A stretch of 64,000 nucleotides of DNA from Brevundimonas abyssalis TAR-001. Its GTDB lineage: Bacteria; Pseudomonadota; Alphaproteobacteria; Caulobacterales; Caulobacteraceae. Both the position numbers and the translations under genes were made by a program. This document shows, in pieces, positions 7,276-64,000 of the stretch. Each line of letters opens with the position of its first letter. Positions within the stretch are counted from its first letter, which is position 1. The notes below the pieces were generated by a model that was not told the origin of the DNA, did no database searches, and saw nothing but the letters and a program-made list of their open reading frames with translations. The stretch is from NCBI RefSeq assembly GCF_000466985.1, contig NZ_BATC01000005.1, forward strand, positions 1-64,000, in the 5' to 3' direction.

Positions 7276-7923
7276 ATGATCGAACAGGTGATAGACGCGC
7301 TGGGCGGCATGACGACGGCCGTCCAGGGATGGGGGGAGCCTTTCGCCGTCTGGATCGTGCCCGCCTTGCTGGGGCTGGGCCTCGCCGCGTCGACGGGCCT
7401 GCGCACTTTCCTGCCGTTGCTGATGCTGGCGCTTGCGGCGCGGTTCGGTTGGTTCGGAATCCAGCTGAACGAGCAGATGCAGTGGTTGCATTCCGACGCC
7501 GCCGTGGCGGCGCTGGGGGTGGCGGCGGTGGCGGAGTTCACGGCCGACAAGGTTCCGGTCGTGGACAACGCGCTCAGCGGCGTCGGACTCATTGTGCGGC
7601 CCCTCGCGGCGGCGCTGGCCGCCGGGTCGCTGTTCGTCGGCGTGGATCCGCTGCTGGCGGCGGTGGCGGGAATCATCGTCGGGGCGCCGACGGCCCTGGC
7701 CTTCAACGCGGCGCAGGGCGGCCTGAGGTTGGCGTCGACCGCCACCACGGGCGGTCTGGGCAATCCGGTGCTGTCGTTGTTCGAGGACGTGCTGGCTTTC
7801 TTCACAGCCCTGCTGGCCCTGCTGGCGCCGGTGCTGGTCCCGGTGTTCCTCGTCGTCCTCGCCCTGATCGTGGGACGCGTGGCGCGTCGCGCGCGCCGGA
7901 GGCTTGAGCGTCAGTCCGTCTGA
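7276..7923 (+). CDS. DUF4126 integral membrane protein
   Basis: A strong GGAGG site precedes the ATG. The 215-residue protein has about five hydrophobic segments rich in Ala/Val/Leu/Gly. The motif ASTGLRTFLPLL near residue 40 and AEFTADKVPVVDNALS near residue 90 are typical of DUF4126. The function of the family is not known; it is probably an inner-membrane protein. Its 3' end overlaps the convergent gene by 13 bases, so neither has room for its own terminator. Confidence 0.8.
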   Translation: MIEQVIDALGGMTTAVQGWGEPFAVWIVPALLGLGLAASTGLRTFLPLLMLALAARFGWFGIQLNEQMQWLHSDAAVAALGVAAVAEFTADKVPVVDNALSGVGLIVRPLAAALAAGSLFVGVDPLLAAVAGIIVGAPTALAFNAAQGGLRLASTATTGGLGNPVLSLFEDVLAFFTALLALLAPVLVPVFLVVLALIVGRVARRARRRLERQSV

Positions 7924-8615
7924 ACCCAGCCGCCGGCCGATGCCTCGCGCGCCTGTTCATTGACGGGGCGGGCGATCAGGCCCGACTGGGTGATCCAGAC
8001 CTCGTACTGGGCCCCGTCGGCCATGGGCATGTAGGCGGCTGAGCCATACAGCGTGTCCACGGCGTCCACATAGTCCCGGTAACGCCGCGACACGTCCCAG
8101 ACATCCAGGGTCCAGCGCCGCTCGGACGCCACGTCGCCGCCGCGCAGGTCGTGCACGCTGCGCACGGCCGTCAGTTCCTGCTGGGTGTCCTGATAGCGGC
8201 CAGACAGACGGTCCAGCCGGTATTGCGCGTCCAGGCCCAGAATGTTGGCCCAGGGCTTCCAGCGCAGGACATGGGCCTCGATGCGCCATTCGTCGCCGTG
8301 AACCGGATAGACCGCCGTCGAGGCCGGGGTCGCATCCGTTTCAGGCTGGGTCAGGGTCGCTTCGAAGAACTGCGTCTCGATCTGGCTGAGTGTAATGGTG
8401 GCGACCGGTCGTTCGTGGGTCAGGCGTGCGTAGCTCTGGACATTGAGGCCCAGAAGGATGGCGGCGACCCCGGCGGCGAGGATCCCGCCGCCGAAAAGCA
8501 CGCCGCTGAACGCCCCCAGGAACCGGCCCCGAAACAGGGCCCCCAGCCCCGAAAGCAACAACAGCGCGCCGGCCAAGGCAGCCGCGCCGGGAAGAATCCA
8601 CCACCACCAGACCAT
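7911..8615 (-). CDS. uncharacterised membrane-anchored protein
   Basis: The 234-residue product starts MVWWWWILPG and has two N-terminal transmembrane helices (about residues 5-25 and 35-60). A soluble domain of about 170 residues follows, rich in Trp, Tyr and Arg (EWRIEAHVLRWKPWANILG, SRRYRDYVDAVDTLYG). I do not recognise a known enzyme motif. The soluble part would face the periplasm if both helices span. It is divergent from the histidine kinase gene and converges with the DUF4126 gene. Confidence 0.65.
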   Translation of the reverse strand: MVWWWWILPGAAALAGALLLLSGLGALFRGRFLGAFSGVLFGGGILAAGVAAILLGLNVQSYARLTHERPVATITLSQIETQFFEATLTQPETDATPASTAVYPVHGDEWRIEAHVLRWKPWANILGLDAQYRLDRLSGRYQDTQQELTAVRSVHDLRGGDVASERRWTLDVWDVSRRYRDYVDAVDTLYGSAAYMPMADGAQYEVWITQSGLIARPVNEQAREASAGGWVQTD

Positions 8616-45250: not shown

Positions 45251-45604
45251 ATGGCCGCGAAGAGATCGTCCTGGTTGTCGCTCTACGCCGTGATCGCACT
45301 GTTGGTCGCGGTGTTTGTCGCGCCGACCGTGGATGCGGCCGCCTGCGCGCCGGAAGCGTCCTTCGCCGCAGCGCATATGGTCGATGATCACTCAAGCGAC
45401 GGCGCCAGCGAGGATGACGCTGGGGAGCGGGGCGGCGACCATGGCCTGTGCTCGCACGGCCATTGCCACCACGGCGGCGCGGCGCGTGTCGATACCGCTT
45501 CCGAGGCCGTCAGGATGACGCTGAGCGAGGAACGGCCGCCGTTCGTCGACGATTCCGCGCCGTCCGGCGCTATCGAAGGACTGAAGCGCCCTCCAAGGGC
45601 CTGA
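45251..45604 (+). CDS. His-rich exported metal-binding protein (CzcI-like)
   Basis: This 117-residue protein has an N-terminal hydrophobic leader (SLYAVIALLVAVFVAPTVDA) and a periplasmic part with a dense His/Cys cluster, HGLCSHGHCHHGG near residues 72-84. Small His-rich exported proteins of this kind (for example CzcI) precede czcCBA operons and are thought to affect metal sensing or buffering. Sequence similarity to CzcI itself is only in layout. It is the first gene of the efflux operon, with 56 bases before czcC. Confidence 0.6.
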   Translation: MAAKRSSWLSLYAVIALLVAVFVAPTVDAAACAPEASFAAAHMVDDHSSDGASEDDAGERGGDHGLCSHGHCHHGGAARVDTASEAVRMTLSEERPPFVDDSAPSGAIEGLKRPPRA

Positions 45605-45660
45605 CCGCGAGACCGCGCCGTCGCGGGCGCACTTGCTGTCAGACCTTTGGATAATGACCC

Positions 45661-46914
45661 ATGCCTGCATTCCATCGCCGGCGGCCGCCCATCGCGGCCA
45701 GCTGCGCCCTCGTCGCCCTTGTGACGGCGATCTCCAGCCCTGCCTGGGCTGATCCCGCTCCGTCCTACGCCCAGCTCCTGGCTCGGCTCGATCAAACCCC
45801 GGCCGCCACAGAGGCCTTGGCCCTGGAAGACGCCGCCGAGGCGCGTGTCCGTCAGGCGCGGGTGCGGCCCAATCCCACTGTCTCGCTCGAAGCGGAGAAT
45901 GTCCTCGGCTCGGGCCCCTTCTCGGGGTTCGGCGGCGCCGACACCACCCTGTCGGTCAGCCAGGACCTCGAACTGTTCGGCCGGCGCGGCGCACGCATCG
46001 ACGCCGCCCGCGCCGACGCGAGGACCGCTACCCTGCGGCGCGACCTTGCCGTGGTGGATGCGGCAGGCCGTCTGGCCTTGGCCTATGCCGAGGCCGAAGC
46101 GGCGGAACGCCGCGCCGCGCTCGCCGACGAGACCCTGACCCTCACCTTGGCCGATGCGCGTGCCGCGCTGGTTTTGGTCGAGGAAGGCCGTGAGCCGCTG
46201 TTGCGGGGCATCCAGGGCGAAAGCGAAGCCGCCGCCGCCCGCGCGACCGCCGACGAGGCCGCCGCCGAGCGCGACGCCGCCTTCGCCCGGCTCACCGCCG
46301 TCGCCCAGCTTGCCGCGCCGGTGACCTCCATCCCAGCCACGCTGCTGGATCAGACGCCCGCCTCGGCCGCTGCGGCGGCGGAAGGCCCGCCGACCGTGCG
46401 GGTCGCCGAAGCCGAGCGGCAAGCAGCCGAGCGGCGGATCGCGGTCGAACGCACCCGGGCCCGCCCCGACATCTCCGCCAGCGTCGGGGTCCGCCGCTTC
46501 GAGGCCGAGGACGCCAACGCCTTCGTCTTCGGCCTCAGCGTGCCGTTGCCGCTGTTCGACCGCAATCGGGGCAATATCGACGCGGCCAGGGCGGAGTTTC
46601 GCGCCGCCGACGCCCGGCTCGCAAGCGCCCGGCAAGACGCCCAGGCCGACCGGGCGGCGGCCGAGGCCCGCCTCGCCGCATCGGTCAGCCGGGTGCGCGC
46701 GGCCGACGCCGGGGTGACCTCGGCCGAGGAGGCCTATCGGCTATCGCGCATCGGCTTTGAGGCCGGGCGCATCTCCCAGCTCGAGCTGCGCGCCACCCGA
46801 ACCGCGCTCGTCAGCGCCAGAACCGCCGCCGTCGACGCTCGCCTCGCGCGCGTCAGGGCGGAGATTGACCTCGCGCGCCAGGACGGCCGCGCTCCCTTCG
46901 AAGGACCTCAATGA
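45661..46914 (+). CDS. czcC: CzcC-type outer membrane efflux protein (TolC family)
   Basis: The 417-residue protein has a signal peptide (ALVALVTAISSPAWA) and the TolC-type helical repeats (ARVRQARVRPNPTVSLEAENV, then GLSVPLPLFDRNRGNIDAARAE, a duplicated OEP signature). It forms the outer-membrane channel of a three-part cation efflux pump. The ATG overlap with czcB indicates coupling. Codon use and GC content are similar to the core, though the operon sits inside the accessory segment. Confidence 0.88.
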   Translation: MPAFHRRRPPIAASCALVALVTAISSPAWADPAPSYAQLLARLDQTPAATEALALEDAAEARVRQARVRPNPTVSLEAENVLGSGPFSGFGGADTTLSVSQDLELFGRRGARIDAARADARTATLRRDLAVVDAAGRLALAYAEAEAAERRAALADETLTLTLADARAALVLVEEGREPLLRGIQGESEAAAARATADEAAAERDAAFARLTAVAQLAAPVTSIPATLLDQTPASAAAAAEGPPTVRVAEAERQAAERRIAVERTRARPDISASVGVRRFEAEDANAFVFGLSVPLPLFDRNRGNIDAARAEFRAADARLASARQDAQADRAAAEARLAASVSRVRAADAGVTSAEEAYRLSRIGFEAGRISQLELRATRTALVSARTAAVDARLARVRAEIDLARQDGRAPFEGPQ

Positions 46915-48113
46915 TGCGCAAGCGCATGACCGACAAACCCGTACTGATCGGCGGCGCAGCCGCTCTCGCCCTCGTCGTCGCCGTCGGCGGCTATTTCGTC
47001 TTGACCCCGGACGATCGTGAGACCGCCCAGGTCGAGGCCGCCCACAGCGAAGGGGACGGCGATACCCACGAAGGCGAAGCCGGACATGAAGGCGAAGAGG
47101 CCCGCGAGGGGTTCGTCGCCCTCGACGCCGAACAGATCCAGGCCTCCAACATAACCGTCGTCGCCCTGGGACGCGGCGGTGGCACGGAGACCCAGCTCTC
47201 CGGCCGCGTCGAGCCCATGGTCGATTCCCGCGCGGCGGTCGCCGCCGCGGTCGGCGGGCGCGTCGAACGGGTTCTTGTCGCGCCGGGCCAGTCAGTCCGT
47301 GCCGGCCAGGCCCTGGCCAGCCTGGTCAGCGGCGACGCCGCGACTTTCCGCGCGGACGCCGATTCAGCCGCAGCCGGTGCCGAAGCCGCGCGCCTCGCCT
47401 ATCAGCGCAATCGCAATCTCGCCGACCAGGGTATCGTCGCGCGTCAGGAGGTAGAGGCGTCCCGGGCGCAGATGTTGAGCGCCGAGGCCGCGACCCGCGC
47501 CGCGCGCGCCCGATCCGCCGCCGCCGGCTCGCCCAACGCCTCCGGGCGGCTCAGCGTCTCCAGCCCGATCTCCGGAGTGGTGACTTCGGTCCAGGTGGGT
47601 CCCGGCGGCTTCGTCCCCCAGGGCGGCGTCGTTGCCGAGGTGACCAACCCGGCGCGAGTCGAGTTGGTGTTCAATGCGCCGCCTGCCCTTGCAGCCCAGG
47701 CGCGCGTCGGCTCGCCGCTCCGGGTCACCGGACCGACCGGCGAGTTCGACGCCGTCGTCAGCGGCGTCGCCGCCGGCGCGGGTGGAGATAGCGGAGCCAC
47801 GCTCATCCGCGCGCGTCCGACCGGCGGGGGCCTGCCCCCAACGGGCTCCGCCGTCACCGGCGCCATCGTCACCGGCGACGCCGCAGGCGCGCTGACCGTG
47901 CCGAGCGACGCCGTGCAGACGGTCGAGGGGCAGACCGTGGTGTTCGTGCACGTCGCGGGCGGCTTCCAGGCCACGCCGGTCCTCGCCGGACGGCAGGCGG
48001 GCGGGCGCACCGAAATCCTGCGTGGTCTCGACGGCGACGAGCGTATCGCCGGAACCGGCGCCTTCTTGCTCAAGGCCGAACTGGCCAAGGGCGAAGCCGA
48101 GCACGGTCACTGA
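46911..48113 (+). CDS. czcB: CzcB-type periplasmic adaptor protein
   Basis: The 400-residue membrane fusion protein has an N-terminal anchor or signal (VLIGGAAALALVVAVGGYFVL) and an acidic His-containing stretch (HSEGDGDTHEGEAGHEGEE) that may bind metal. A biotinyl-lipoyl-like hairpin follows with GGRVERVLVAPGQSVRAGQALASL, then a coiled hairpin and beta-barrel domains. It links CzcA to CzcC. The His/Glu region is typical of heavy-metal rather than drug adaptors. Its stop is 14 bases before czcA. Confidence 0.88.
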   Translation: MMRKRMTDKPVLIGGAAALALVVAVGGYFVLTPDDRETAQVEAAHSEGDGDTHEGEAGHEGEEAREGFVALDAEQIQASNITVVALGRGGGTETQLSGRVEPMVDSRAAVAAAVGGRVERVLVAPGQSVRAGQALASLVSGDAATFRADADSAAAGAEAARLAYQRNRNLADQGIVARQEVEASRAQMLSAEAATRAARARSAAAGSPNASGRLSVSSPISGVVTSVQVGPGGFVPQGGVVAEVTNPARVELVFNAPPALAAQARVGSPLRVTGPTGEFDAVVSGVAAGAGGDSGATLIRARPTGGGLPPTGSAVTGAIVTGDAAGALTVPSDAVQTVEGQTVVFVHVAGGFQATPVLAGRQAGGRTEILRGLDGDERIAGTGAFLLKAELAKGEAEHGH

Positions 48114-48127
48114 GGGAGGGCGGGATC

Positions 48128-51100
48128 ATGTTCAAACTTATCATCGAGACGTCCGTTCGCTTCCGCTGGGCCGTCGTCCTCATCACTGCTTTGGTCGCCG
48201 CCGTCGGCATCTACAACCTGACCCGATTGCCGATCGACGCCGTGCCCGACATCACCAACCGGCAGGTGCAGATCACGACGGTCGCTCCGGCGCTCGCGCC
48301 CGAGCAGATCGAGCGGCAGGTCACCTATCCGATCGAGACCGCCATGGCCGGGATACCCGGCCTGACCTCGACCCGCTCGCTGAGCCGTAACGGCTTCAGT
48401 CAGGTGACAGTGATCTTCACCGATCGCACCGACATCTACTTCGCGCGCCAGCAGGTCGCCGAGCGGCTCGCCGCTGCCCGCGAAACCATGCCCGAAGACG
48501 TGGAGCCGGCCATGGCTCCGATCACCACCGGCCTGGGTGAGGTGCTGATGTGGACGGTCGACTACGTCCCCTTCAACAGCGACAACCTGGCTGAGCCGGG
48601 CCAGCCCGGCTGGCAAGCCGGCGGCGCCTATCTCACGCCGGAGGGCGAGCTTCTGACCACACCGCAAGCGCGCGCCACCTATCTGCGCACGGTTCAGGAT
48701 TGGATCATTGCCCCGCAGATGCGCACGGCCGAGGGTCTGGCGGGGGTCGACGTCAACGGCGGCTACGTCAAGGAATACGCCGTTCGCCCCGATCCGGCGC
48801 GGCTTTCGGCCTATGGCCTGAGTTTGAATGACCTGACCCAGGCGTTGGAGCGGGCCAACACTCAGGCGGGAGCCGGCTATATCCGGCGCGCCGGCGAGGG
48901 GCTGACCGTGCGCACCGACGCCCTTGCCACAACCGTCGAAGACCTGGCCCAGGCGCCCGTGGTCAATCGGGGCGGGCTGGTGGTGCGTGTCGCCGATGTG
49001 GCGACGGTCGAGATCGGCCAGGCCCCGCGCCTGGGCGGCGCGACGCGCGACGGGCACGAGGCGGTCCTGGGCACGGCCCTGATGATCGCGGGCGGAAACA
49101 GCCGAACTGTGGCGCAGGCGGCCGGTGAAAGGCTGGAGCAGATCCGGTCGACGCTGCCGCCGGGCGTCGAGGCGGTGACCGTGCTGGACCGCAGCGCCTT
49201 GGTGAACGCCACCATCGGCACGGTGGCAAAGAACCTGACCGAAGGCGCGCTACTGGTCATCGCTGTGCTGTTTCTGCTGCTGGGCAACTTCCGCGCTGCG
49301 GCGATCACCGCCCTGATGATCCCCATCAGCTTCCTGTTCGCGGTCATCGGCATGAACCGCTTCGGCATCAGCGGCAACCTGATGAGCCTGGGCGCGCTCG
49401 ACTTCGGCCTGCTGGTCGATGGCGCGGTTATCGTCGTGGAAAGCACTCTGCTTATGCTATCGCAGAAGCGCATCGAGCTTGGCCGGGCGCTCTCGCGCAT
49501 CGAACGCTTGCAGGTGGCTGCCGCGGCGGCGCGGAAGATGGTGCGGCCAGCCGCCTTCGGCCAGCTCATCATTCTGCTGGTGTTCACGCCGCTGCTTCTG
49601 CTCGAAGGGGTCGAGGGCAAGACTTTCATCCCGATGGCGGCCACGGTGATGCTGGCGCTGGCGGGCGCTTTCCTCTTCTCCTTCACCTTCGTGCCCGCCA
49701 TGGTGGCGCTGCTGGTGCGCGAACCCAGGACGATCCATGTGGACGCCGAAGGGCGCGCCGAGGAGCATGAGACGCGCATCATCCGCTGGGTGCGCTTGCG
49801 GGTCGAACCCGTCATCCGCCGCGCTGTCGCCCGGCCACGCACGGTGATGATATCGGCTGTCGCCGCCTTCGCCATCGGCCTGCTTGCCTTCTCCACCCTG
49901 GGCCGGGAGTTCGTGCCCACGCTGGACGAAGGCGACATCGCCATGCAGGCGCTGCGTGTCCCTTCGGCCTCGCTGGAGCAGTCACTGGCGATGCAGATGG
50001 CGCTGGAACGGGCGATCACCGCCCAGCCGGAAGTGGAGACCGTGTTCTCGCGCACCGGCACTGCGGAGGCGGCGGTCGATCCGATGCCGCCGAACATCTC
50101 CGACGCTGTCATCGTCCTGAAGGACCGGTCCGACTGGCCCGATCCGAGCCTTTCCAAGGAGGCGCTGATCGAACGTATTGAAGGGCTGGCCTCGCGCCAG
50201 GTCGGCAATGCCTTCGAGTTCAGCCAGCCGATCGAGCTACGCTTCAACGAGCTGATCTCAGGTGTGCGCACGGACCTTGCCGTCATGGTCTACGGCGAGG
50301 ACTTCGAGCAATTGAACCGGGTCGCCGACCAGGTGGCGAACGCGCTGCGCCAGACCGAGGGCGCCGCCGACGTACGGGTCGAGCAGACAACGGGCCTGCC
50401 GACGCTGACCGTCAGCGTCGATCGCTTCGCGGCCGCCAATTACGGCCTTGCGGCCGCCGACGTCTCCGAAGCGGTCTCGGCCGCCATCGGCGGGGCCGAG
50501 GCCGGGCAGGTGTTCGAGGGCGACCGCCGCTTCGATGTGGTGGTGCGCCTGCCCGACGCCCTGCGTAACGACCCGGCCGCGCTCGCGGCCTTGCCCATCG
50601 TCTCAGCTACGGGGGTCACCGTGCCGCTTTCCTCGGTGGCGCGGATCAATGTCTCGGAAGGGCCCAACCAGATCAGCCGGAACGACGGCAGCCGCCGCGT
50701 GGTGGTGCAGTCCAACGTGCGTGGTCGGGACCTGGGCGGCTTCGTCGCCGAGGCGCAGGACCGCGTGGCGGAAATCGAGCTGCGACCGGTGTTCGGCTCG
50801 ACTGGGGCGGCCAGTTCGAGAACCTTCAGAGGGCCGAGCAGCGTCTGGCGCTCGTGGTGCCCATGGTCTTCCTGATGATCGGCGCTTTGCTGTTCATGGC
50901 GCTCGGCTCCTTCAGGGAAGCCGGGCTGGTGTTCGCCTGCGTGCCGCTTGCTTTGGTCGGCGGGGCGCTGTCGCTGGTCCTGAGGGGCATGCCCTTCTCG
51001 GTATCGGCGGCGGTTGGTTTCATCGCCGTCTCCGGCGTCGCGACCTTGAACGGCCTGGTCCTGATGCAGGCGATCCGCGAACGGATCGAAGGCGGGCTGC

Positions 51101-51345
51101 CGCCGCATGAGGCGGCGATCCAGGGCGCGGCGAGCCGCCTGCGCGCAGTGCTGACCACCGCGCTGGTGGCCATCGTCGGCTTCATCCCCATGGCGTTGGC
51201 ACACGGGGCCGGCGCAGAGGTGCAGAAGCCGCTCGCCACAGTGGTCATCGGAGGACTGATGACGGCCACGGCTCTCACTCTGCTGGTGGTGCCGACCTTT
51301 GCCGCCAGAGTCATGCGGCCGAGGACAGAGGTGGCGGAGGCATGA
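48128..51345 (+). pseudogene. czcA: CzcA-type heavy-metal RND permease, frameshifted
   Basis: This proton-driven inner-membrane pump exports divalent cations such as Co, Zn or Cd. The proton-relay motif of metal-type RND proteins is clear in LDFGLLVDGAVIVVE near residue 425. The porter domains and the second set of helices (MVPMVFLMIGALLFMALGS) are present. The frame breaks near 50788-50792 (AEIELRP to VRLDWGGQFENLQ); adding one base restores a normal 1072-residue protein. The CDF gene start overlaps the stop (ATGA). Exact metal specificity is not readable. Confidence 0.9.
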
Positions 51346-51944
51346 GCGGTTCGCACGGTTCCGCGCGGATCCAGAAGCGAACGCTTCTGATCGTCCTGGC
51401 CCTCAACGCAGGCCTGTTCGTCCTGCTCGGAATCGGCGGCCTCGCCGCCGATTCCAGCGCGCTGATCGCCAATGCGCTCGACAACGCCTCGGATGCGCTG
51501 GTCTATCTCGTAAGCTTTCTCGCCATCGGCCGAGCGATGATCTGGAAGCAGCGGGCCGCCCAGCTGTCGGGCGTCCTGCTGCTGATCTTCGCCGCCGCCG
51601 TCCTAATCGACGCCGGTCGGCGCTGGTGGTTCGGCACCGAGCCGATCGGCCCGACGATGATGGTCCTCGCGGTAATCGCGGCGGCGGTGAACCTGATCTG
51701 CCTCATGCTGATCCGACGCCAGCACAGCGAGGACGTCAACATGAGGGCGGCGGAGACCTTCAGCTTCAACGACTTCGCGGCCAATGGTGGCATCCTCGTC
51801 GCCGGCGGCCTGGTGATGTGGCTGGAACAGGCTTGGCCCGACCTCGTGGTCGGCGTCCTTGTCGCCGCCATCGCGCTCAAAGGCGGAATCGATATCCTGC
51901 GCAACGCCGCTCATCCGGAGCCGGCCGCGGACGAACCGACATGA
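51342..51944 (+). CDS. short cation diffusion facilitator-like transporter
   Basis: The 200-residue protein has six hydrophobic segments matching a CDF membrane domain (LNAGLFVLLGIGGLAADSSALIANALD at the start). The TM5 metal site reads FNDFAANGG and the TM2 site reads ALDNASDAL, so Asn/Asp replace the usual His pair. The C-terminal cytoplasmic domain of typical CDF proteins (about 300 residues) is absent. Such short forms exist beside Czc pumps. Its start overlaps the czcA stop. Confidence 0.78.
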   Translation: MSGSHGSARIQKRTLLIVLALNAGLFVLLGIGGLAADSSALIANALDNASDALVYLVSFLAIGRAMIWKQRAAQLSGVLLLIFAAAVLIDAGRRWWFGTEPIGPTMMVLAVIAAAVNLICLMLIRRQHSEDVNMRAAETFSFNDFAANGGILVAGGLVMWLEQAWPDLVVGVLVAAIALKGGIDILRNAAHPEPAADEPT

Positions 51945-52059
51945 GGCCGGGAGCCTCGCGGCGCACCCAAGGGGCGCGGGATCGCGCCTCGATGGCTATG
52001 ATGTCAGGAGGAGATTGCGCGATGACCGAAGTCCCTTCCCGCCGACCGGAGCCCCGGTC

Positions 52060-52212
52060 ATGAAGCGGAACCGGCTGGCGACCGTGATCGCGGGAATGAT
52101 CTTCGTCCTCGCCCTCCTGCTCGGCATAGCGGCGCGGGCGCTGTGGATAGAGTGGGACCATCACAAGAGCGCGCACGCCCCGCCAACGGCGTCCGAGCGA
52201 CCGCCGCCCTGA
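52060..52212 (+). CDS. 50-residue membrane protein with His tail
   Basis: A small ORF gives MKRNRLATVIAGMIFVLALL followed by a short hydrophilic tail with DHHKSAHA. A single transmembrane helix and a His-containing tail suggest a small accessory protein of the metal operon. It lies 115 bases after the CDF gene and 47 bases before the ATPase gene, all in one direction. The ribosome site is weak. Function is unknown. Confidence 0.45.
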   Translation: MKRNRLATVIAGMIFVLALLLGIAARALWIEWDHHKSAHAPPTASERPPP

Positions 52213-52259
52213 ACCAGCCGCGCCTCCGACCCGATACCTCCTTCGCCGGGAGCCCCGAC

Positions 52260-54769
52260 ATGTCCGACACGATGAAACTCGACCTTCCGATCCTCCTGCC
52301 CGGCGCGCCGGACGCCTCGGACGCCTGCGTCGGGCGGCTCATCTCCCTGCTCCGCGACGAACCGGGGGTTTCGGAGGCCCATGTGGTCGAGGAGGACGCC
52401 GCGCCGCGCCTGTGCATCCATTACGATCCCGGCCAGCTCACCCTGGCGGAGGTCCGCCGGCGGGCACGTCTCGCCGCGCCGAGATCACGGGGCGCTACGG
52501 CCACCTCGTCGGGTGGCTCGACGGCGTGCGCCATGCCCGGCACGCCCGGACGATCGAAGCCGCATTGGCCGCGCATCCGGGCGTGCTGGAGGCCGCAGTC
52601 GACCCTTCGGGCGCCGTGCGCCTGGAGTTCGAGCGCGACCGTCTGGACCGCGCTGGAATCGACCGCCTGCTCGCCGACCACAAGCTAGGCTTCTCCGACA
52701 CGCCGCTTGCGCGGACGGCGGCGGCGCCTAAGCGCAAGGAGGCCGACGATCATGCACACGGGGTTGGAGAGGACCACGACCACGCCCACGGTCCCGATGA
52801 CGGGCACGGCCATGCCCATGGCGGCTTCCTCGGGCCTAACACCGAGCTGATCTTCGCACTCGCCAGCGGCGCGGCGCTGGCCCTCGGTTTCCTCCTCGAA
52901 TGGCTCGCGCCCGATCTGCCCGGCTGGCTGCCGCTTGCCTTCTATCTCACGGCCTATGGATTCGGCGGCTTCTTCACCGTCGGCGAGGCGATCGAGAATC
53001 TGCGGCGCAAACGGTTCGAGATCGACACCTTGATGCTCGTCGCCGCCGCCGGCGCGGCCGCCCTCGGGGCCTGGGCGGAAGGCGCGCTGCTGCTGTTCCT
53101 GTTCAGCCTCGGCCATGCGCTGGAGCATTACGCCATGGGCCGCGCGAAGCGCGCCATCGAGGCGCTGGCCGAACTCGCGCCGCGCACCGCCCATGTCCGC
53201 CGCGACGGCCAAGTGGTCGAGCTTGCGGTCGAGGACCTGGTGGTCGGCGACATCGTGATCGTCAGGCCCAACGAGCGCCTGCCCGCCGACGGCTTCGTGT
53301 TCGCCGGGTCCACCAGCATCAACCAGGCGCCGGTCACCGGCGAAAGCATGCCGGTCGACAAGCAGCCGGTCGCCGATCCGGAGGAGGCGCGCGCCCGGCC
53401 CGCCTCGGTCGGCGCGGCGTCGCTCGTCTTCGCCGGCACCATCAACGGCTCCGGCGCGATCGAGATCGAGACCACCCGGAGATCCAGCGACACCACCCTG
53501 GCCAAGGTCGTGCGCATGGTCAGCGAAGCCGAGACCCAGAAGTCGCCGACCCAGCGGTTCACCGAGCGATTCGAGCGTATCTTCGTGCCGCTCGTGCTGG
53601 CGCTTGCGGTCGTCCTCCTGTTCGCCTGGGTGGTGGTGGACGAGCCGTTCCGCGACAGCTTCTATCGCGCCATGGCGGTGCTGGTCGCCGCCAGCCCCTG
53701 CGCCCTCGCCATCGCCACGCCGAGCGCGGTCCTGTCCGGCGTCGCGCGGGCGGCGCGGGCGGGCGTGCTCATCAAGGGCGGCGCGCCGCTGGAGAACCTG
53801 GGCTCGCTCGACGCCATCGCCTTCGACAAGACCGGCACCCTGACCGAAGGCCGACCGCGCATCACCGATGTTGCGCCCGTGGACCGCATTGAGGAGGCCG
53901 AGCTGCTGACGGTGGCCGTGGCCGTGGAGCGGCTGAGCGACCACCCGCTGGCCGAGGCCATCGCTCGTGACGGCGCCGAACGGTTGGGCGGAAAGACGCA
54001 AGCGAGCGCGTCCGGGCTGCGCAGCCTCACGGGCAGGGGCGTGACGGCACAGTTCGGCGGCGAGACGGTCTGGATCGGCAAGCCCGAGATGTTCGGCGCG
54101 GACGGCCTCGATCCGCTCGGCGAAGATGCTTCCGCCGCGGTGGAGCGCCTGCGCGAGCAGGGCCGCACCCTGATGGCGGTGCGCAAGGGGGACCGGGACC
54201 TCGGCGTCATCGGCCTGCTCGACACCCCGCGCGCTGCGGCCGGGCCCGCGCTCGACGCACTGCGCCGTCTCGGCGTGCAGCGCATGCTGATGATCTCCGG
54301 CGACCACCAGAAGGCGGCCGAGGCGATCGCCGGCCAGGTCGGTCTCACCGAGGCGTGGGGAGATCTGATGCCCGAAGACAAGGTCGAGGCGATCAGGAAA
54401 CTGCGCGCCCAGGCGAAGGTCGCCATGGTCGGCGACGGGGTTAATGACGCGCCCGCGATGGCGACCGCAACCGTCGGCGTCGCCATGGGCGCCGCCGGCT
54501 CCGATGTGGCGCTGGAAACGGCGGACGTGGCGCTGATGGGCGACGACCTGTCGCAGTTGCCCTTCACCGTCGGGCTCAGCCGCCAGACCCGGCGCATTAT
54601 CTTGCAGAACCTGGTCGTCAGCCTGGGCATCGTCGCCTTCCTCGTCCCTGCCACCATTCTCGGACTTGGGATCGGCCCCGCCGTCGCTCTGCACGAAGGT
54701 TCCACGCTGCTGGTGGTGTTCAACGCATTGCGCCTGCTCGGCTATCGCGATCCCTCGTCATCGCGGTAA
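52260..54769 (+). pseudogene. P1B-4-type metal-transporting ATPase, frameshifted near the N-terminus
   Basis: The restored protein of about 836 residues has two HMA-like N-terminal domains without clear CxxC sites, then a His/Asp-rich linker (DHAHGVGEDHDHAHG). The membrane and ATPase core has TGESMPVD, the transmembrane metal motif ASPCALAIATP (SPC instead of CPC), DKTGTLTEG, SDHPLAEAI, GDGVNDAPAM and HEGST in the last helices. SPC with HEGxT is the mark of P1B-4 pumps, which export Co, Zn, Cd or Fe. The frame breaks near 52478; one added base joins the two parts. Confidence 0.9.
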
Positions 54770-55285: not shown

Positions 55286-55798
55286 TCAAGGTCCTGCCTC
55301 GGCCTCGGCTTGTGTTTCACCGGCGCCAATGGTCATTCCGGCGCGATATGACGGCGGCAGTTGGCGAGGCCATGCCGGATCTGATCCGAAGCGCCGCAGG
55401 CGGAACTGATGGCGCCAGGTCGCCGATGCCAAGATGGCGACAAGCACCCAGGCCCATAGCGCGACGGCGTTGCCATAGGCCCATGAGATGACGTCGGGCC
55501 TCAGTCCCGCCAGATGGGAGATCGCAACGACGCCCTGTATCGCGGCCATCCAGATCGGCCAGAACCGTGTGGAAGAGATCGACAGGGCATAGAGCGCCAG
55601 GAAAGCAACTCCATCGACGCAAAACATCGCCCATTCGACATCCGCATAGCGACTCTCCAGCGGCGCGATCAGCCAGTGGCTGAACTGGAAGTTGGCGATG
55701 AGGATCACCGCGCCGATACGCTCGGGGGCTCCGCCTCTGAGTAATGCGTAGCTGCAACTCAGAATGTAGAGCAGGTTGAAGATGACCACGCGGAGCAT
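55286..55798 (-). CDS. membrane protein of unknown function
   Basis: The 170-residue protein has four or five hydrophobic segments (LRVVIFNLLYILSCSYALL, WAMFCVDGVAFLALYAL, MAAIQGVVAISHLAG, VALWAWVLVAILASA). The C-terminal 40 residues are hydrophilic. An ATG at 55798 follows a TTG that opens the longer frame. No family was recognised. It lies between the MarR-like gene (40 bases) and another unknown gene (33 bases), so it is one operon. Confidence 0.6.
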   Translation of the reverse strand: MLRVVIFNLLYILSCSYALLRGGAPERIGAVILIANFQFSHWLIAPLESRYADVEWAMFCVDGVAFLALYALSISSTRFWPIWMAAIQGVVAISHLAGLRPDVISWAYGNAVALWAWVLVAILASATWRHQFRLRRFGSDPAWPRQLPPSYRAGMTIGAGETQAEAEAGP

Positions 55799-55831
55799 CA
55801 AGGGCGGTGATCGACATGCCGGTGGTTCCCG

Positions 55832-56215
55832 TCAAGGAAGTGCATTGACGGGGTCCGCCTGCGCCGAGCCGGACGTCCCACGAACCGGTCCTGGGATGAT
55901 GTCCTTGTCGCCGCCCGCGCTGACGTCGATCCGGAAATGCTGGCGCGTCTTGTCGAGGCTGTGATGCCCATCGACCGCGCTTTCCATCGCCTTCGAGATG
56001 AGGCCCAGTGAAATGACGAAGTGACCGATAGCGTCCTGGCCGACCGTCGCGGACAGGTCGGCGTCGGTCCGCGCGCCCGGCAGGAATCCGACGAGCCGCG
56101 AACCGCTTTCCAGGGCGCGGCCGAGGTCGCATTCGAAAGTCGTCAAGTGTGCCACGATCTCGTCGGCGATTTCGTGGCGACGATTATGGCTACGGCGCAA
56201 CTGGGCAACAGACAT
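55832..56215 (-). CDS. protein of unknown function in the regulatory operon
   Basis: The 127-residue soluble protein begins MSVAQLRRSHNRRHEIADEIV and contains FVISLGLISKAMESAVDGHHSLDKTRQHFRI. The N-terminal part is helical and Arg/His-rich. No known domain or signal peptide was found. A GAGAGGGA ribosome site lies before the ATG. It is flanked by the LuxR-type membrane protein gene and a membrane protein gene in one operon. Confidence 0.55.
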   Translation of the reverse strand: MSVAQLRRSHNRRHEIADEIVAHLTTFECDLGRALESGSRLVGFLPGARTDADLSATVGQDAIGHFVISLGLISKAMESAVDGHHSLDKTRQHFRIDVSAGGDKDIIPGPVRGTSGSAQADPVNALP

Positions 56216-56257
56216 GGCAATCCCTCTCCAAAATTTGGAAACGCAAGGTCGCCGAAG

Positions 56258-56713
56258 TCACTCCGAGAACGAGAGGGCGAGCTGGGACAAGGCAGCGATG
56301 CCGCCGACCAGTATGCCTACTCCCATGGCGAGGAACCCCATGAGTAGGAGCGGCCAGAGTATGCGCCAGCCCAGGCTCATGTCGTTCCACGGCCTGCCCC
56401 TCACGGGGAAGGGCAGGTTGTCCGCCCATCCATTCGAGCGTTCGGCGGGCTCCTGATGTCGCGCTTTCCCGCCGTCGCTCCATCCCGATTCCGTGGTCCC
56501 TACGCTTTCGGGGGGTCCTGTTTCATGCTCGCGAAGCATCATCGCTGCGGTCATGCTGTCGCCGACGCCGAGCTTGCGGCGCGCGGATTTGAGGTGGTCG
56601 TGCACGGTGTAAACCGATAGGTCGAGCGTGCGCGCGATCTCCTTCGCACGCATCGGGCGGGCGAGCAGGCGCAGGCATTCCCGCTCCCTTTCGCTCAGCA
56701 AATCGACTCTCAT
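56258..56713 (-). CDS. LuxR-type HTH protein with C-terminal membrane anchor
   Basis: The first 65 residues are a GerE/LuxR DNA-binding domain (LLSERERECLRLLARPMRAKEIA, then VYTVHDHLKSARRKLGV). It is placed at the N-terminus rather than the usual C-terminus. A hydrophilic linker of about 55 residues follows. The end is a transmembrane helix (ILWPLLLMGFLAMGVGILVGGI). It is the first gene of a four-gene operon. A DNA-binding domain tethered to the membrane suggests direct signal input from the membrane; this is inference. Confidence 0.75.
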   Translation of the reverse strand: MRVDLLSERERECLRLLARPMRAKEIARTLDLSVYTVHDHLKSARRKLGVGDSMTAAMMLREHETGPPESVGTTESGWSDGGKARHQEPAERSNGWADNLPFPVRGRPWNDMSLGWRILWPLLLMGFLAMGVGILVGGIAALSQLALSFSE

Positions 56714-58890: not shown

Positions 58891-59436
58891 ATGACCGGCA
58901 CGGTCGCACCCAGGCTTGATCCGCTGGCCACACTTCTCGACCAGCGGTTCCGCAAGCCGCTCATGAGCTATTTCCTTCGCCGCGTCGGTTCGCGTGCGGA
59001 AGCCGAGGACCTGACTCAAGACGTGTTCGTGCGGCTGCTTGACGCTTCCGAGCGCCGACCGATCGAAGATGTCGAAGCGCTCGTATTCGTCACCGCCGCC
59101 AATCTGCTTAAGGATCGCGCGCGCAGGAGCCAGCGGCGCAGTCAGCATGGCGCGGCGCCGACGGACGCGGCTGACGTTTCCGCCGTCACGCACGAATTCG
59201 TTGAGGATCGGGACCCCGAGCGCGTCTTGCTGGGGAGAGAGTCGATCTCTGCAATGCTGGCCGCGCTCGATGAGCTGGGAGAGCGGACGCGGGACATCTA
59301 CATCCTGTTCCGCCTGGAAAACATGAAGCAAGCCGAGATCGCAGCCCTGTTCAATGTCAGCCGCAGCACGGTGGAGAAGGAAGTGGTGAAGGCCACGCTT
59401 CATCTGGCGCTTCGGCGCGGCCGCGAGGGCGCATGA
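58891..59436 (+). CDS. FecI-type ECF sigma factor
   Basis: The start ATG follows GGGAGGGG and gives 181 residues. Region 2 contains FLRRVGSRAEAEDLTQDVFVRLLDA, the core-binding and -10 recognition segment. Region 4 has ELGERTRDIYILFRLENMKQAEIAALFNVSRSTVEKEV, a helix-turn-helix for -35 recognition. FecI-type factors are activated by a FecR protein signalled from a TonB receptor in the outer membrane. The next gene overlaps it by 4 bases and encodes that FecR. Confidence 0.92.
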   Translation: MTGTVAPRLDPLATLLDQRFRKPLMSYFLRRVGSRAEAEDLTQDVFVRLLDASERRPIEDVEALVFVTAANLLKDRARRSQRRSQHGAAPTDAADVSAVTHEFVEDRDPERVLLGRESISAMLAALDELGERTRDIYILFRLENMKQAEIAALFNVSRSTVEKEVVKATLHLALRRGREGA

Positions 59437-60500
59437 CGTCGATCGACCAGAGATCGGCCGATGAGCTGCGCCGCCTTCAGGAGGCCGCAGTCTGGCGCGT
59501 GCGCCTCACGGAGGACGGCGTCGGGAGCAGTGAAGCCTTTGAAACCTGGCGCGCAGACGCCGGTAACGCCGCGGCCTTTGACGAAATAGACGAGCCCTGG
59601 CGGCGCATGGGCGAGGAGGGCGCGTCGCCGGAGGCGATATCGGCGCGTGTGGGCGCGCTCCAAAGGGCGCGTCGCAGCGGCCGGAGACGGTGGCGCGCAC
59701 GAAGCGGCATCTGGAAAGCCGTCGCCGCGATCGGTGTCATCGGCCTCCTCCTTGGCGCCTTCGTGGGCTGGCGGTGGACCGATGCGCGCCCCCTTGTCTA
59801 TGAAACCGGCATGGGCGAACGCCGCGTCGTCCAGCTCGCCGATGGGTCCACGGTGTCCCTGGATTCCTCTAGTGAGGTTCGGGTCCGGTACTCCGCCGAC
59901 GCGCGGCAGCTCAGCCTTGAGCGCGGACAGGCGCGGTTCGAGGTGGCGCACGATACTGGGCGTCCATTCACGGTCCGGGCCGGTGATCAGATCGTGGTCG
60001 CGACCGGGACAGCATTCAATATCGACATGCTGGGCCCCGAGGTTCTGGTGACCCTGCTGGATGGCCGGATCACCGTCATGAACGTCCCTGTCGATACGGC
60101 GGAAAGCGCGCCCAGGAGCGGTCGCGCCAGCGGCTCGGCCATCCCGGCCGAGCAGCCTTCGTCCGCGTCGGTTAATCTCACGCCGGGCCAACAGATCGTC
60201 ATCCGACCTGCGACGATCGCGGAGGTGAAGCCGGTCAGCGCCAGCCGGGCGACGGCTTGGGAAACTGGGCAGCTCGTGTTCGAGGATGAACCGCTTTCCG
60301 CCGCAGCGGCGCGGGTCAGCCGCTACAGCGGTCGTCGGATCGCCGTCGAAGGGCCCGCCGCCGACCTGCGCATCTCGGGGGTCTTCAAGGCCGGGGACGC
60401 CGGGGGCTTCGTGGACATCGTCAGCCGCTACCTGCCGGTGTCGGCCCGCTCGGAATCGTCCGGCGAAATCACCCTCCGCACCACCCCTGACGGTGTGTGA
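59433..60500 (+). CDS. FecR-type anti-sigma factor
   Basis: The 355-residue protein starts with a DUF4880-like cytoplasmic domain (AAVWRVRLTEDGVGSSEAFETWRAD) that binds the sigma factor. A transmembrane helix follows (IWKAVAAIGVIGLLLGAFVGW, about residues 90-112). The periplasmic FecR domain includes RRVVQLADGSTVSLDSSSEV and ARFEVAHDTGRPFTVRAGD. The C-terminal part (LVFEDEPLSAAAARVSRYSG) resembles the STN-interacting FecR tail. It carries the signal from the receptor to FecI. Confidence 0.9.
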   Translation: MTSIDQRSADELRRLQEAAVWRVRLTEDGVGSSEAFETWRADAGNAAAFDEIDEPWRRMGEEGASPEAISARVGALQRARRSGRRRWRARSGIWKAVAAIGVIGLLLGAFVGWRWTDARPLVYETGMGERRVVQLADGSTVSLDSSSEVRVRYSADARQLSLERGQARFEVAHDTGRPFTVRAGDQIVVATGTAFNIDMLGPEVLVTLLDGRITVMNVPVDTAESAPRSGRASGSAIPAEQPSSASVNLTPGQQIVIRPATIAEVKPVSASRATAWETGQLVFEDEPLSAAAARVSRYSGRRIAVEGPAADLRISGVFKAGDAGGFVDIVSRYLPVSARSESSGEITLRTTPDGV

Positions 60501-60582
60501 ATTATTTTTTGAGGAATTGCGTCGGCGCCGCGTCTTCCCCTCCCGAGCCCGAATACGGGCCGTTCCAAATCGGGGGCCTTCC

Positions 60583-63174
60583 ATGACTGCTGCCAGAAAA
60601 TTCACCGCCTCGGCGCGGCGCGCGCTTCTGTGTTCCACCGCCCTCGCGCTCGGCCTCGCCTTCGGGATACCGGCCCCCGCGGCAGCCGCGAGTCAGGAGC
60701 GCACGGCGAGCTACGACATTCAGAACCAGTCGCTGGGGGTGGCGCTGAGAGAGTTCGGTCGGCTTTCGGGCGTGCAGATCATCTTTTCGGAAGATCTCGT
60801 GCGAGGACGCACTGCGCCCGCCCTGCGAGGTGACTTCGCCGCGTCCGAGGCGCTTGATCGTCTTCTGGCCGGCTCGGGCCTGGTGGCCCAACGCACACCG
60901 ACGGGCGCGGTGATGATCGTTCGGGCGGGTGACCGGCTCCAGGTCGAAGGGGCCACCTTCCTCCCCGATCAGGCGACCACCGTGGACGAGATACTTGTGA
61001 CCGGCAGCCGGATCAGGGGAGCGCCACCGTCAGCACCGGTCATTAGGCTGACGCAAGATGAGATGCGCAACGCGGGCAATGCCAATCTCGGAGACGCTAT
61101 CCGCGATCTCCCGCAAAACTTCAGTGGAGGGCAAAATCCTGCGGTCGGCCCGGGGTCCGGTTCGGAAAGCGGAAACGCCAATTCTACGTCGCAGGTCAAT
61201 CTTCGCGGTCTAGGACCCGACGCGACGCTGACTCTCTTAAACGGCCGTCGACTAAGCTATAGCGGAGTTCGCCAAGGGGTCGACATAACTGCGATACCAC
61301 TTGCCGCAGTGGAGCGGGTTGAGATCGTCGCGGACGGCTCATCCGCCTTGTACGGTTCCGACGCTGTTGGAGGTGTCGTCAACGTTATTCTTCGCAGGGA
61401 TTTCGACGGCGTGAGCGCCAGCGCGAGATTTGGCGCGTCGACGGATGGCGGAAACGTCCAAGAGCAATATACACTCGCGGCAGGACGTATTTGGGACGGT
61501 GGTGGGCTTATCGCCACCGTCAACTATGAAGACGCAACTGCTATCACTGCCCGGCAGCGATCCTACACCGACAGGCTTCAGGAATCACAGATCATCTACC
61601 CCCCGATTGAGGCGTGGGGAGGGATACTGAGCGGGCACCAGCGTCTCGGATCATTCGCGGACTTTCGCGTCGACGCGCTGTACAATCGGCGAGACAGCTT
61701 CGCTGGCACGCCGTTAGGGCCGACAGAGGACTACGACTACTTCGGCTCGACTGTCGACATGAGCCTGACGTCCTACCTCCTTTCGCCCAGTGTCGCATTC
61801 GACTTGCCCTCCGGCTGGCGTGGCGAACTGAGCATCGTTCACGGGCGAGATACGACCGACCAGACTGCCGCCGTGTATATTGGCGGCGCACTGGCTCAGG
61901 GCATTGAGGGACGGTTTGACAACGCCACTCGAGTCTACGAGGCCACAGCCGAGGGGCCGATTTTCTCTGCACCCGGCGGCAACGTGCGACTGGCTGTCGG
62001 GGCCGGCTATCGCGAGATCGAGTTTGAATCCTTTTCGTCCTCTAATCCGGTCATCCAGGCCAACCAAAACGCGCGGTTCGCGTACGGTGAAATCCATTTC
62101 CCTATCGTTAGGCAGTTAGCACTCACTACCGCCGTTCGATATGAGGATTACGAGGACTTGGGCGACGTCGTCGTCCCTAAGATCGGGCTGACCTTCGCTC
62201 CCAACCCCGACTGGGATTTCAAGGCATCCTGGGGGGAATCGTTCAAGACACCCACACTCAATCGCCAGTACATGAATGAGGGCGCTACGCTTGTCCGGGC
62301 GTCCGCAGCCGGAGGACAGGGCTACGATCCAGACAATCTGGTTCTGGTGCGAAGCGGGGGAAATCCCGACCTAGACCCTGAACGCGCGACGACCTGGTCG
62401 GTAACAGCTGTGTGGCATCCACAGAGGCTTCCTGGCCTGGATATCGGAGTCAGCTACTTCGACGTCGAGTACAAAGATCGTGTCGTCGTTGCCGTCACCT
62501 CGACGCCCGGTGCTCTAAGCAATCCATTGTACGCCAGCTTTATCACGCTGAATCCGTCGGAAGCGCAGCTCCAAGAGATCATCGCAGGTCTTACGGGAAC
62601 ATTCACCAACAACACCGGTGTTCCCTATACTCCCGAAAACGTCGTCGCTGTTCTCGATCGTCGCTTTCAGAACGTCGCTGAACAGCGAGTTCAAGGTGTC
62701 GACGCGTCATTTGCGTACACCTTCGACGCCGGTCGATACGGTAGCGTAGCGACAGTTGCAGGTGGAACGTACCTTACCTCCGACCAGATCATCCTTCCCG
62801 GCCAACCCTCGGTCGATCTCAGCGGCACAGTTTTCAATCCCCCTCGCTTTCGTGGGAGAATTGGGTTGGCTTGGAGCAACGGAGACTTCGTCCTTTCGCC
62901 ACAACTCAACTATTCGGGCCGCTTGACGGACCGGAGGTTTGCGACCCCGGAGAAACTCTCCTCACAAGTTACGTACGATCTGACTGCACGATATAGACTC
63001 CGCACGCTTCTGCCAGGTGATGGGGACTTGGAGATCGCTGCTTCCGTTCTCAACATTACCAATGAAGCGCCTGAACCTATTCGGACGACGCTGGCCAATG
63101 ATGTGCCCTATGAATCGACGAATTACAGCCCCAGAGGGCGCTACGTGGGAATTACGCTGACAGGACGTTGGTGA
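60583..63174 (+). CDS. TonB-dependent receptor with STN signalling domain
   Basis: The start MTAARKFTASARRALL leads to a signal peptide and gives 863 residues. The STN domain (about residues 45-115) reads YDIQNQSLGVALREFGRLSG and QIIFSED, and is the part that contacts FecR. A TonB box region (TVDEILVTGSRIRG) follows. The plug has QVNLRGLGPDATLTLLNGRR and DGSSALYGSDAVGGVVNVILRR. The barrel ends in GITLTGRW with a terminal Trp. Base composition drops from very GC-rich to more moderate at about 61,030. Its likely ligand is a lasso peptide, inferred from the next gene. Confidence 0.92.
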   Translation: MTAARKFTASARRALLCSTALALGLAFGIPAPAAAASQERTASYDIQNQSLGVALREFGRLSGVQIIFSEDLVRGRTAPALRGDFAASEALDRLLAGSGLVAQRTPTGAVMIVRAGDRLQVEGATFLPDQATTVDEILVTGSRIRGAPPSAPVIRLTQDEMRNAGNANLGDAIRDLPQNFSGGQNPAVGPGSGSESGNANSTSQVNLRGLGPDATLTLLNGRRLSYSGVRQGVDITAIPLAAVERVEIVADGSSALYGSDAVGGVVNVILRRDFDGVSASARFGASTDGGNVQEQYTLAAGRIWDGGGLIATVNYEDATAITARQRSYTDRLQESQIIYPPIEAWGGILSGHQRLGSFADFRVDALYNRRDSFAGTPLGPTEDYDYFGSTVDMSLTSYLLSPSVAFDLPSGWRGELSIVHGRDTTDQTAAVYIGGALAQGIEGRFDNATRVYEATAEGPIFSAPGGNVRLAVGAGYREIEFESFSSSNPVIQANQNARFAYGEIHFPIVRQLALTTAVRYEDYEDLGDVVVPKIGLTFAPNPDWDFKASWGESFKTPTLNRQYMNEGATLVRASAAGGQGYDPDNLVLVRSGGNPDLDPERATTWSVTAVWHPQRLPGLDIGVSYFDVEYKDRVVVAVTSTPGALSNPLYASFITLNPSEAQLQEIIAGLTGTFTNNTGVPYTPENVVAVLDRRFQNVAEQRVQGVDASFAYTFDAGRYGSVATVAGGTYLTSDQIILPGQPSVDLSGTVFNPPRFRGRIGLAWSNGDFVLSPQLNYSGRLTDRRFATPEKLSSQVTYDLTARYRLRTLLPGDGDLEIAASVLNITNEAPEPIRTTLANDVPYESTNYSPRGRYVGITLTGRW

Positions 63175-64000
63175 TGAGTTTCCCATACTTCGCCAGAATT
63201 GTGCTTCTGGCATTCGTCACTGTTTTCGCTTCGGCGGCTCAGGCTCAGGCTCAGGCTCAGGAGCCGGAATGCGCGGATTTGCATCCAGACTGGTCCATCG
63301 AGGGGGAGACACCAACAACGGTTTCCGCCAAGGATCTCGTGCTGCTACGAGACTTCGGCGCCGTTTATCCACTGGCAGCTCAGAGTCCATTCGGCGTGTC
63401 CCCGGATGGGCAACGCATTGCGATCCAACTGCGGCAGGCAAGGCCGTCTTCAAATACCTATTGCCTCGGACTGTTTGTCATTGATCGTCACGCTGACGAA
63501 CCGCCCGCGCTTATCGATGACGGCGGCGATCTTGTGTTCCCAAGGCCGAATCATCAGGGGTTGGGGAGCTTTCCGGTAGGCCACCAGCAGGTCATTGTCC
63601 CGCGCTGGTCGCCAAACGGTCAGTCGGTCGCTTACCTGAAGCGAGAGGACGGCTCCACCCAAGTTTATGTCGTCTCGGGCGACGGTAGTGGCGGCCGTTT
63701 TGTGACCAGCTCCGAAACGGATGTTGAGGAATTCGTTTGGTCGCCTGATGGACAGGAAGTGATTTACGCTACCCCGGCTGAGCTAGTCGCGGCGGAAGCT
63801 GCGATCCTGGAAGAAGGGCGTCGAGGCTGGCGCTATGATGGTAGATTCCATCCACTGACCCAAAGCAGGCCATACCCCGCCCCGATAGCCAGTGAGTATC
63901 GCGCTGCCCATCTCAGGACCGGAGCAGAGCGTCCCGCTACCGAGGAAGAGGCTCGACGTCTGAATGCCGAAACACGATCCGGTCGGGTCGTGAACAGCAG
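63174..64000 (+). CDS. Atxe2-family lasso peptide isopeptidase (partial)
   Basis: The ATG shares a base with the receptor stop (TGATG). The frame stays open to the window end for 275 codons. A signal peptide (FARIVLLAFVTVFASAAQA) is followed by four AQ pairs, then ECADLHPDWSIEGETPTTVS, KDLVLLRDFGAVYPL and FGVSPDGQRIAIQ. Next come VPRWSPNGQSVAYLKREDG, SETDVEEFVWSPDGQEV and RRGWRYDGRFHPLTQS. This order is the N-terminal beta-propeller of AtxE-type isopeptidases, which open the lasso ring bond. The Ser-Asp-His hydrolase domain would lie beyond the window. A related prolyl oligopeptidase is the alternative. Confidence 0.8.
   Translation, partial: MSFPYFARIVLLAFVTVFASAAQAQAQAQEPECADLHPDWSIEGETPTTVSAKDLVLLRDFGAVYPLAAQSPFGVSPDGQRIAIQLRQARPSSNTYCLGLFVIDRHADEPPALIDDGGDLVFPRPNHQGLGSFPVGHQQVIVPRWSPNGQSVAYLKREDGSTQVYVVSGDGSGGRFVTSSETDVEEFVWSPDGQEVIYATPAELVAAEAAILEEGRRGWRYDGRFHPLTQSRPYPAPIASEYRAAHLRTGAERPATEEEARRLNAETRSGRVVNS

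Follow-up and report, generated by a model that had tools for sequence, protein, structure and literature searches.

The window, i.e., the whole stretch of DNA analysed, is the first 64,000 bases of the 96,202-base contig C124; the assembly totals 2.98 Mb in 128 contigs and is 86% complete. At its end four genes are arranged on the forward strand, and their families were assigned by using Pfam and NCBIfam models. The first gene, FecI1 (58891..59436), encodes an ECF sigma factor with matches, when scanned from 58816, to Sigma70_r2 (39.9 bits) and Sigma70_r4_2 (45 bits), both above the Pfam cut-off, and is followed by the genes for the anti-sigma regulator FecR1 (59433..60500; PF04773, 80.2 bits), the TonB-dependent receptor TBDR1 with an N-terminal STN domain (60583..63174; PF07660, 43.3 bits; PF07715, 66.2 bits; PF00593, 124.8 bits; scanned from 60286), and IsoP1 (63174..64000, continuing to 65300 on C124), which is matched by the model NF033523 and by the AtxE2 structure 5txc. 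FecI1 and FecR1 overlap by 4 bases, an 82-base gap is present before TBDR1, and the ATG of IsoP1 overlaps the stop codon of TBDR1 by 1 base. The order FecI-FecR-TonB receptor-isopeptidase in the initial annotation, together with the strands, the overlaps and the 82-base gap, was confirmed throughout by the coordinates and the family models.

The piece of IsoP1 inside the window (277 aa) is matched by NF033523 (lasso_peptidase) with 213 bits (E 9e-63), and the match of IsoP1 to this model is far above chance. On contig C124 the frame remains open past 64,000 up to 65300, yielding a protein of 708 aa from the ATG. Over model positions 1-638 of 638, IsoP1 scored 743 bits and IsoP2, the second isopeptidase of the locus (see below), 755.5 bits against the cut-off of 400; the next best family for IsoP1 was the dipeptidyl-peptidase Dpp5 with 68 bits against its cut-off of 900. 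The alignment of IsoP1 with AtxE2 (5txc) gave 472 bits with residues 48-707 aligned, and both AtxE2 structures, 5txc and 5txe, which differ from each other at Ser527, align near full length with IsoP1 and IsoP2. The residues at Ser527, Glu610 and His638 of AtxE2, which we take to be its catalytic triad, are present in both proteins as judged from the alignment. Both also carry the propeller (PF07676) and the hydrolase domain (PF00326), even though PF07676 of IsoP2 (20.6) falls just below the cut-off of 20.9; the signal peptide of IsoP1 was judged by eye only. The completed IsoP1 includes the prolyl-oligopeptidase-like hydrolase domain (Peptidase_S9), is best matched by Atxe2 and not by an ordinary dipeptidyl peptidase, and keeps its triad as Ser/Glu/His in place of the Ser-Asp-His named initially. 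These observations support the classification of IsoP1 and IsoP2 as Atxe2-family lasso peptide isopeptidases, with hydrolysis of the cognate peptide as the predicted activity. In a search of 5.8 billion proteins, 8000 candidates were scored, of which at least 437 were relatives of IsoP1 at E 1e-50; several of these are annotated as 'Atxe2 family lasso peptide isopeptidase'.

Directly downstream of IsoP1, on the opposite strand of C124, are located the cyclase C1 (65361-67115; PF00733, 88.6 bits), the protease B1 (67112 to about 67771; NF033537, 75.5 against a cut-off of 33) and the precursor A1 (67827-67967; PF24178 (Subterisin), 45.2 against 27), all within 3 kb of IsoP1 and less than 4 kb past the window end. 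A second set follows, in which FecI2 (68289-68861; sigma-70 matches), FecR2 (68858-69853; FecR match), the receptor TBDR2 with an STN domain (69935-72493) and IsoP2 (72487-74685) on the forward strand face C2 (74595-76382; PF00733, 63.4 bits), B2 (76379-77059; NF033537, 72.4 against 33) and A2 (77116-77256; PF24178, 32.6 against 27) on the reverse strand, and then, also on the reverse strand and both by family match, a GntR regulator (77613-78266) and an ABC exporter (78400-80142), the latter presumably a member of the cluster. Only one GntR gene was found for the two sets, and none of its own lies next to A1 in cluster 1. The C proteins stay below the cut-offs of the NCBIfam lasso-cyclase models (98.5 and 81.4 against 300; 45.7 and 53.3 against 525). 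The STN domain, through which FecA-type receptors communicate with FecR, was detected in both receptors (43.3 bits in TBDR1 and 30.3 bits in TBDR2; cut-off 28.4), and each set holds the complete FecI/FecR/FecA-type gene content, i.e., an STN-bearing TonB receptor, FecR and an ECF sigma factor.

In both sets the precursor, the leader peptidase B and the cyclase C adjoin the isopeptidase, the genes are open, and the catalytic residues are kept where checked. Gene content, families, catalytic residues and order are read from the sequence itself, and altogether they indicate, with high confidence, that the locus is a tandem of two complete lasso peptide clusters of the isopeptidase class (astexin/benenodin type). 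The assignment of the Atxe2-type isopeptidase with a TonB receptor and FecI/FecR to an astexin-type cluster was borne out by the family matches and the downstream A, B and C genes. The initial annotation had noted the absence of the precursor and the B and C genes from the window and had offered two alternatives, a position just past 64,000 or a scavenging system; the former held, since C, B and a short precursor are all found on C124, twice over, and the latter did not. The cluster type itself is known, being the canonical astexin/benenodin type, here present twice. The tandem arrangement is not unique, since another genome, from a different family of the order, also has an isopeptidase pair (L084 and L109 on G497:C3), with the matches about 12 kb apart.

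Decay of one of the two sets is suggested as a possibility by G144 and G168, two congeneric genomes (identical to each other in the short stretches compared). In these, all that is left of the cyclase of a related cluster (L053 in G144, remnant at about 7910-8122; L061 in G168) is a C-terminal remnant containing a stop, and A, B, the receptor and the isopeptidase are open. Such decay is improbable for the present locus, where every gene of either set has an open frame, catalytic residues are conserved wherever they were checked, and IsoP1 and IsoP2 are only 40% identical (281/695 positions), with different nearest relatives in the tree, albeit with a support of only 0.76 for their common node. 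Given this identity and the different nearest relatives, neither isopeptidase is a recent copy of the other, and a recent tandem duplication is not supported. More distant cyclase and B2 homologues are present elsewhere in the genomes of G144 and G168. Beside their related cluster, a C39-type peptide exporter and an HlyD-like gene were recognized by reading.

Scavenging or eavesdropping, in which the receptor and the isopeptidase import and linearise foreign lasso peptides and none is made, is very improbable here. The four genes at the window's end would be enough for such uptake and linearisation, and loci of this kind may exist in relatives; because maturation genes adjoin directly downstream, with A, B and C within 3 kb of the isopeptidase and in open frames, the locus is a canonical lasso peptide cluster, and the scavenger reading was rejected for it. 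The same system may in addition take up foreign lasso peptides. Receptor-isopeptidase loci, mostly with FecI/FecR and without B or C in the stretch examined, were observed in other genomes (L123 of G412, L117-L119 of G682, L023 of G032, and L011). Among nine genomes searched, a match to the B2 family was absent in four (G412, G682, G303 and G457); B2 matches were located 15 and 23 kb from the locus in G479, and elsewhere in the genome in G032 (one match) and likewise in that of L011. The isopeptidase of G412 (100% complete) scored 394.7 bits, just below the cut-off of 400, and has lost the GGTGDE motif; G682 (90% complete) has three isopeptidases above the cut-off, in a fragmented assembly with one locus at a contig end; and the isopeptidases of G303 and G457 are weak or partial. 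FecI/FecR are present in the G412 locus and in two of the three G682 loci. Judged from their genes, the G412 and G682 loci are candidate leads for the scavenging of, or eavesdropping on, lasso peptides. A further reading, a nutrient or siderophore operon under generic FecI/FecR control and with an ordinary dipeptidyl peptidase, is conceivable in view of the wide occurrence of FecI, FecR and TonB receptors and of the S9/propeller build that dipeptidyl peptidases have in common with isopeptidases; it can practically be dismissed, given the scores of IsoP1 for Dpp5 (68 against 900) and NF033523 (743 against 400) and the adjoining lasso A, B and C genes.

With the isopeptidase model at E 1e-60, matches were obtained in 36 of the 390 family genomes (35 above the cut-off) and in 37 of 388 genomes in an even sample of the order (34 above the cut-off); within the genus, only G144 and G168 were matched besides this genome. 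For 87 isopeptidase loci outside this genome, collected from the family and order searches, stretches of up to 20 kb were examined for C, which was matched in 74; nine are without C, two of them being the loci of G144 and G168, and for the remaining four the contig ends too close by for a decision. FecI-FecR-TBDR-IsoP facing C-B-A-GntR is a recurrent order in relatives, in agreement with the almost constant architecture ascribed to isopeptidase clusters in the accessible part of PMC9266682.

Both precursors are 46 aa in length, and their cores and rings were predicted. The A1 leader ends in ...IAETK, with Thr at position -2, and is followed by the core GTTVDDIQDQDNFLQRPEAGLSID with Asp at position 9; the A2 leader ends in ...SEQIK, with Ile at -2, and is followed by the core GQIVQRNEDSPLAGGYFEAVGLSDD, in which two residues, Glu8 and Asp9, could close the ring. 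The Thr at leader position -2 named in the initial annotation is thus present in A1, and A2 has Ile in its place. By the precursor model NF033522 (cut-off 33), A2 passes (35.1) and A1 fails (30.1). Thr at -2 is usual rather than universal, being found in 94% of leaders according to the accessible part of PMC11420955. Among 112 precursors (95 distinct cores) identified beside 79 of 88 B genes, Thr was found at -2 in 111 and Ile in one, A2; nine B genes yielded no precursor, and further non-Thr precursors were possibly missed because the filter gave weight to Thr. In the B proteins, one position of the RRE is Tyr in 87 of 88 (87 distinct sequences) and in 120 of 121 from a protein search, two sets that overlap in part, and the sole exception in both is the cluster-2 B protein with Phe. 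The fold predicted for this protein (mean pLDDT 92.6) places Phe28 on strand 3 of the RRE (27-30), and its four closest solved structures are lasso B1 RREs bound to leaders (5v1v, 5v1u twice, and 6jx3), with probabilities of 0.99-1.00 and E values of 0.008-0.08, none reaching 0.001 or better. When the B alignment was searched against the sequences of solved structures, no RRE relative emerged, the two matches at E 0.37-0.38 being due to chance; the RRE of B1 was located by alignment only.

The tyrosine counted here probably corresponds to the RRE tyrosine that is thought to engage Thr(-2) (PMC10368454, accessible part). According to the same part of that source, this tyrosine is not conserved in Bradymonadales, BsfB1 keeps it with an Ile(-2) leader, and the clusters with Ile or Val at -2 found there also have a kinase or phosphotransferase gene; no kinase is present among the genes identified in cluster 2. 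In McjB of microcin J25, Phe23 on the third strand lines the Thr(-2) pocket, as described in the accessible part of PMC11420955. The idea that Ile(-2) is strictly paired with Phe was toned down, since McjB has Phe with Thr(-2) and BsfB1 has tyrosine with Ile(-2), and a single natural case, cluster 2, cannot prove co-variation. Two separate peptide channels in one cell are plausible, since leader discrimination keeps co-resident RiPP pathways apart in the case described in the accessible part of PMC13381572.

Homologues of the ABC exporter at E 1e-100 were found in 14 of the 390 family genomes, in every case with an isopeptidase on the same contig, at distances (from the listed places) of within 10 kb in eight and of 17-60 kb in six. 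The hypergeometric chance of this co-occurrence is 2e-16 when genomes are counted as independent, i.e., with kinship uncorrected. One genome (G155) carries a second copy on a contig without a listed isopeptidase, the copy of another (G099) has an internal stop, and 22 of the 36 isopeptidase-bearing family genomes are without a homologue at E 1e-100. In the order sample, homologues at E 1e-90 were detected in five of 388 genomes, all with an isopeptidase; two of these (G000 and G014) were already counted in the family, and among the three new genomes only G447 has both genes on one contig. At E 1e-60, the ABC protein was matched in two of 31 genomes of the genus and in seven of 20 chosen isopeptidase-bearing genomes. 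The ABC gene lies upstream of FecI in the same direction at several loci, and in three genomes the FecI-FecR pair stays with the ABC gene, with the receptor and the isopeptidase 17-30 kb away. The close homologues of the exporter at C124 78400-80142 (also at L054, L057, L059, L053 and L083) were observed only in isopeptidase-bearing genomes.

More distant ABC proteins (28-34% identity) occur in further isopeptidase loci, and part of this linkage is due to chance, because any bacterial genome has several ABC exporters. Beside some of these distant genes, LuxR-, LuxI- and RovC/DUF2285-like proteins were recognized by reading, so that a shared mobile region could alternatively account for the linkage; the RovC family match is on contig C124. 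The best curated and solved relatives of the ABC protein are general exporters, and the gene linkage suggests that it may export the lasso product of set 2. Isopeptidase clusters have been described as being without an ABC transporter, rubrinodin excepted (PMC9266682, accessible part), and a search of mainly open-access literature listed no publication on a wider link. We tentatively consider, as a combined proposal with the balance somewhat against it, both that a dedicated ABC exporter belongs to a considerable share of isopeptidase-class clusters, so that the rule of either an isopeptidase or an ABC transporter with rubrinodin as the exception fails, and that the re-tuned leader recognition of set 2, with Ile at -2 and Phe at the RRE tyrosine position, keeps the two systems apart in this cell.

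Among known systems, the astexin-2/3 cluster of Asticcacaulis excentricus shares A, B, C, the isopeptidase and the TonB receptor with the present locus, and its AtxE2 aligns with IsoP1 and IsoP2; the difference is the two complete sets in tandem here. Cores in family relatives match what we take to be astexin-1, -2, -3 and benenodin-1, so that the family is probably Caulobacteraceae, with Brevundimonas as a conjecture for the genus. In two relatives with presumed astexin-2/3 cores (L031 of G099 and L033 of G109), distances of about 30 and 17 kb separate the cluster from the ABC gene and a FecI/FecR pair. The benenodin-1 cluster of Asticcacaulis benevestitus has the same architecture, but is a single cluster at its place with Thr at -2, whereas two clusters are present here and A2 has Ile; L054, the core of which is presumably that of benenodin-1, also has an ABC gene upstream of FecI. 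The rubrinodin cluster, as described in the accessible part of PMC9266682, combines the isopeptidase, TonB receptor, FecI/FecR and ABC transporter as here, the transporters being matched by description. In the sphingocin cluster of Sphingomonas BPH, A-B-C lie beside the isopeptidase and TonB receptor as here, and the precursor tail ...FAGLSDD resembles ...AVGLSDD of A2; its operon is described without an associated ABC transporter and with Thr at -2, in contrast to the ABC gene and the Ile of A2 here (PMC11006600, accessible part).

The gene set is best accounted for, in our inference, by a doubled loop of production, export, sensing, import and linearisation. B would remove the leader of the 46-aa precursor, C would join Gly1 to the ring Asp or Glu to give a threaded peptide, and export of the product may be the task of the ABC protein next to set 2. 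The FecA-type STN receptor would then bind its cognate lasso peptide, FecR and FecI would relay the signal to the operon, and FecI would transcribe the receptor and isopeptidase genes. Import would come first, before the isopeptidase opens the isopeptide bond of the returned peptide.

The locus bears on the question of why bacteria make and then open a lasso peptide. The known peptides of the isopeptidase class are without antimicrobial activity, astexin-1 excepted, according to the accessible part of PMC9266682. As each set of the tandem has its own receptor, sigma factor and isopeptidase, receptor-peptide specificity could be tested within one cell. The export step has a candidate in the linked ABC gene, set 2 offers a natural variant for probing the -2 recognition pocket, and the scavenging idea is testable at the receptor-isopeptidase loci of relatives without nearby maturation genes. 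The less usual features here are the Ile(-2) of A2 with the Phe of its B protein, the ABC linkage, and the maturation-free loci in some relatives.

The G+C content is 0.57-0.63 in the lasso genes, 0.68 in bases 1-44000 and 0.71 in the GntR-ABC stretch. The lower value of the lasso genes relative to bases 1-44000 suggests, but does not prove, their horizontal gain, and the difference between 0.71 and 0.57-0.63 implies that the GntR-ABC stretch may have a history other than that of the lasso genes. On both sides of the tandem clusters (55286-56713 and C124 80257-81944), a three-gene module was recognized by reading, consisting of a LuxR-type HTH protein, a protein of about 120 aa and a small membrane protein; of five module proteins scanned, the two HTH proteins have Pfam matches and the other three have none, and L054 has a similar module next to its ABC gene. 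A short distance ahead of the lasso region (45251-54769), a heavy-metal efflux-like set resembling CzcCBA was recognized by reading of the translations only.
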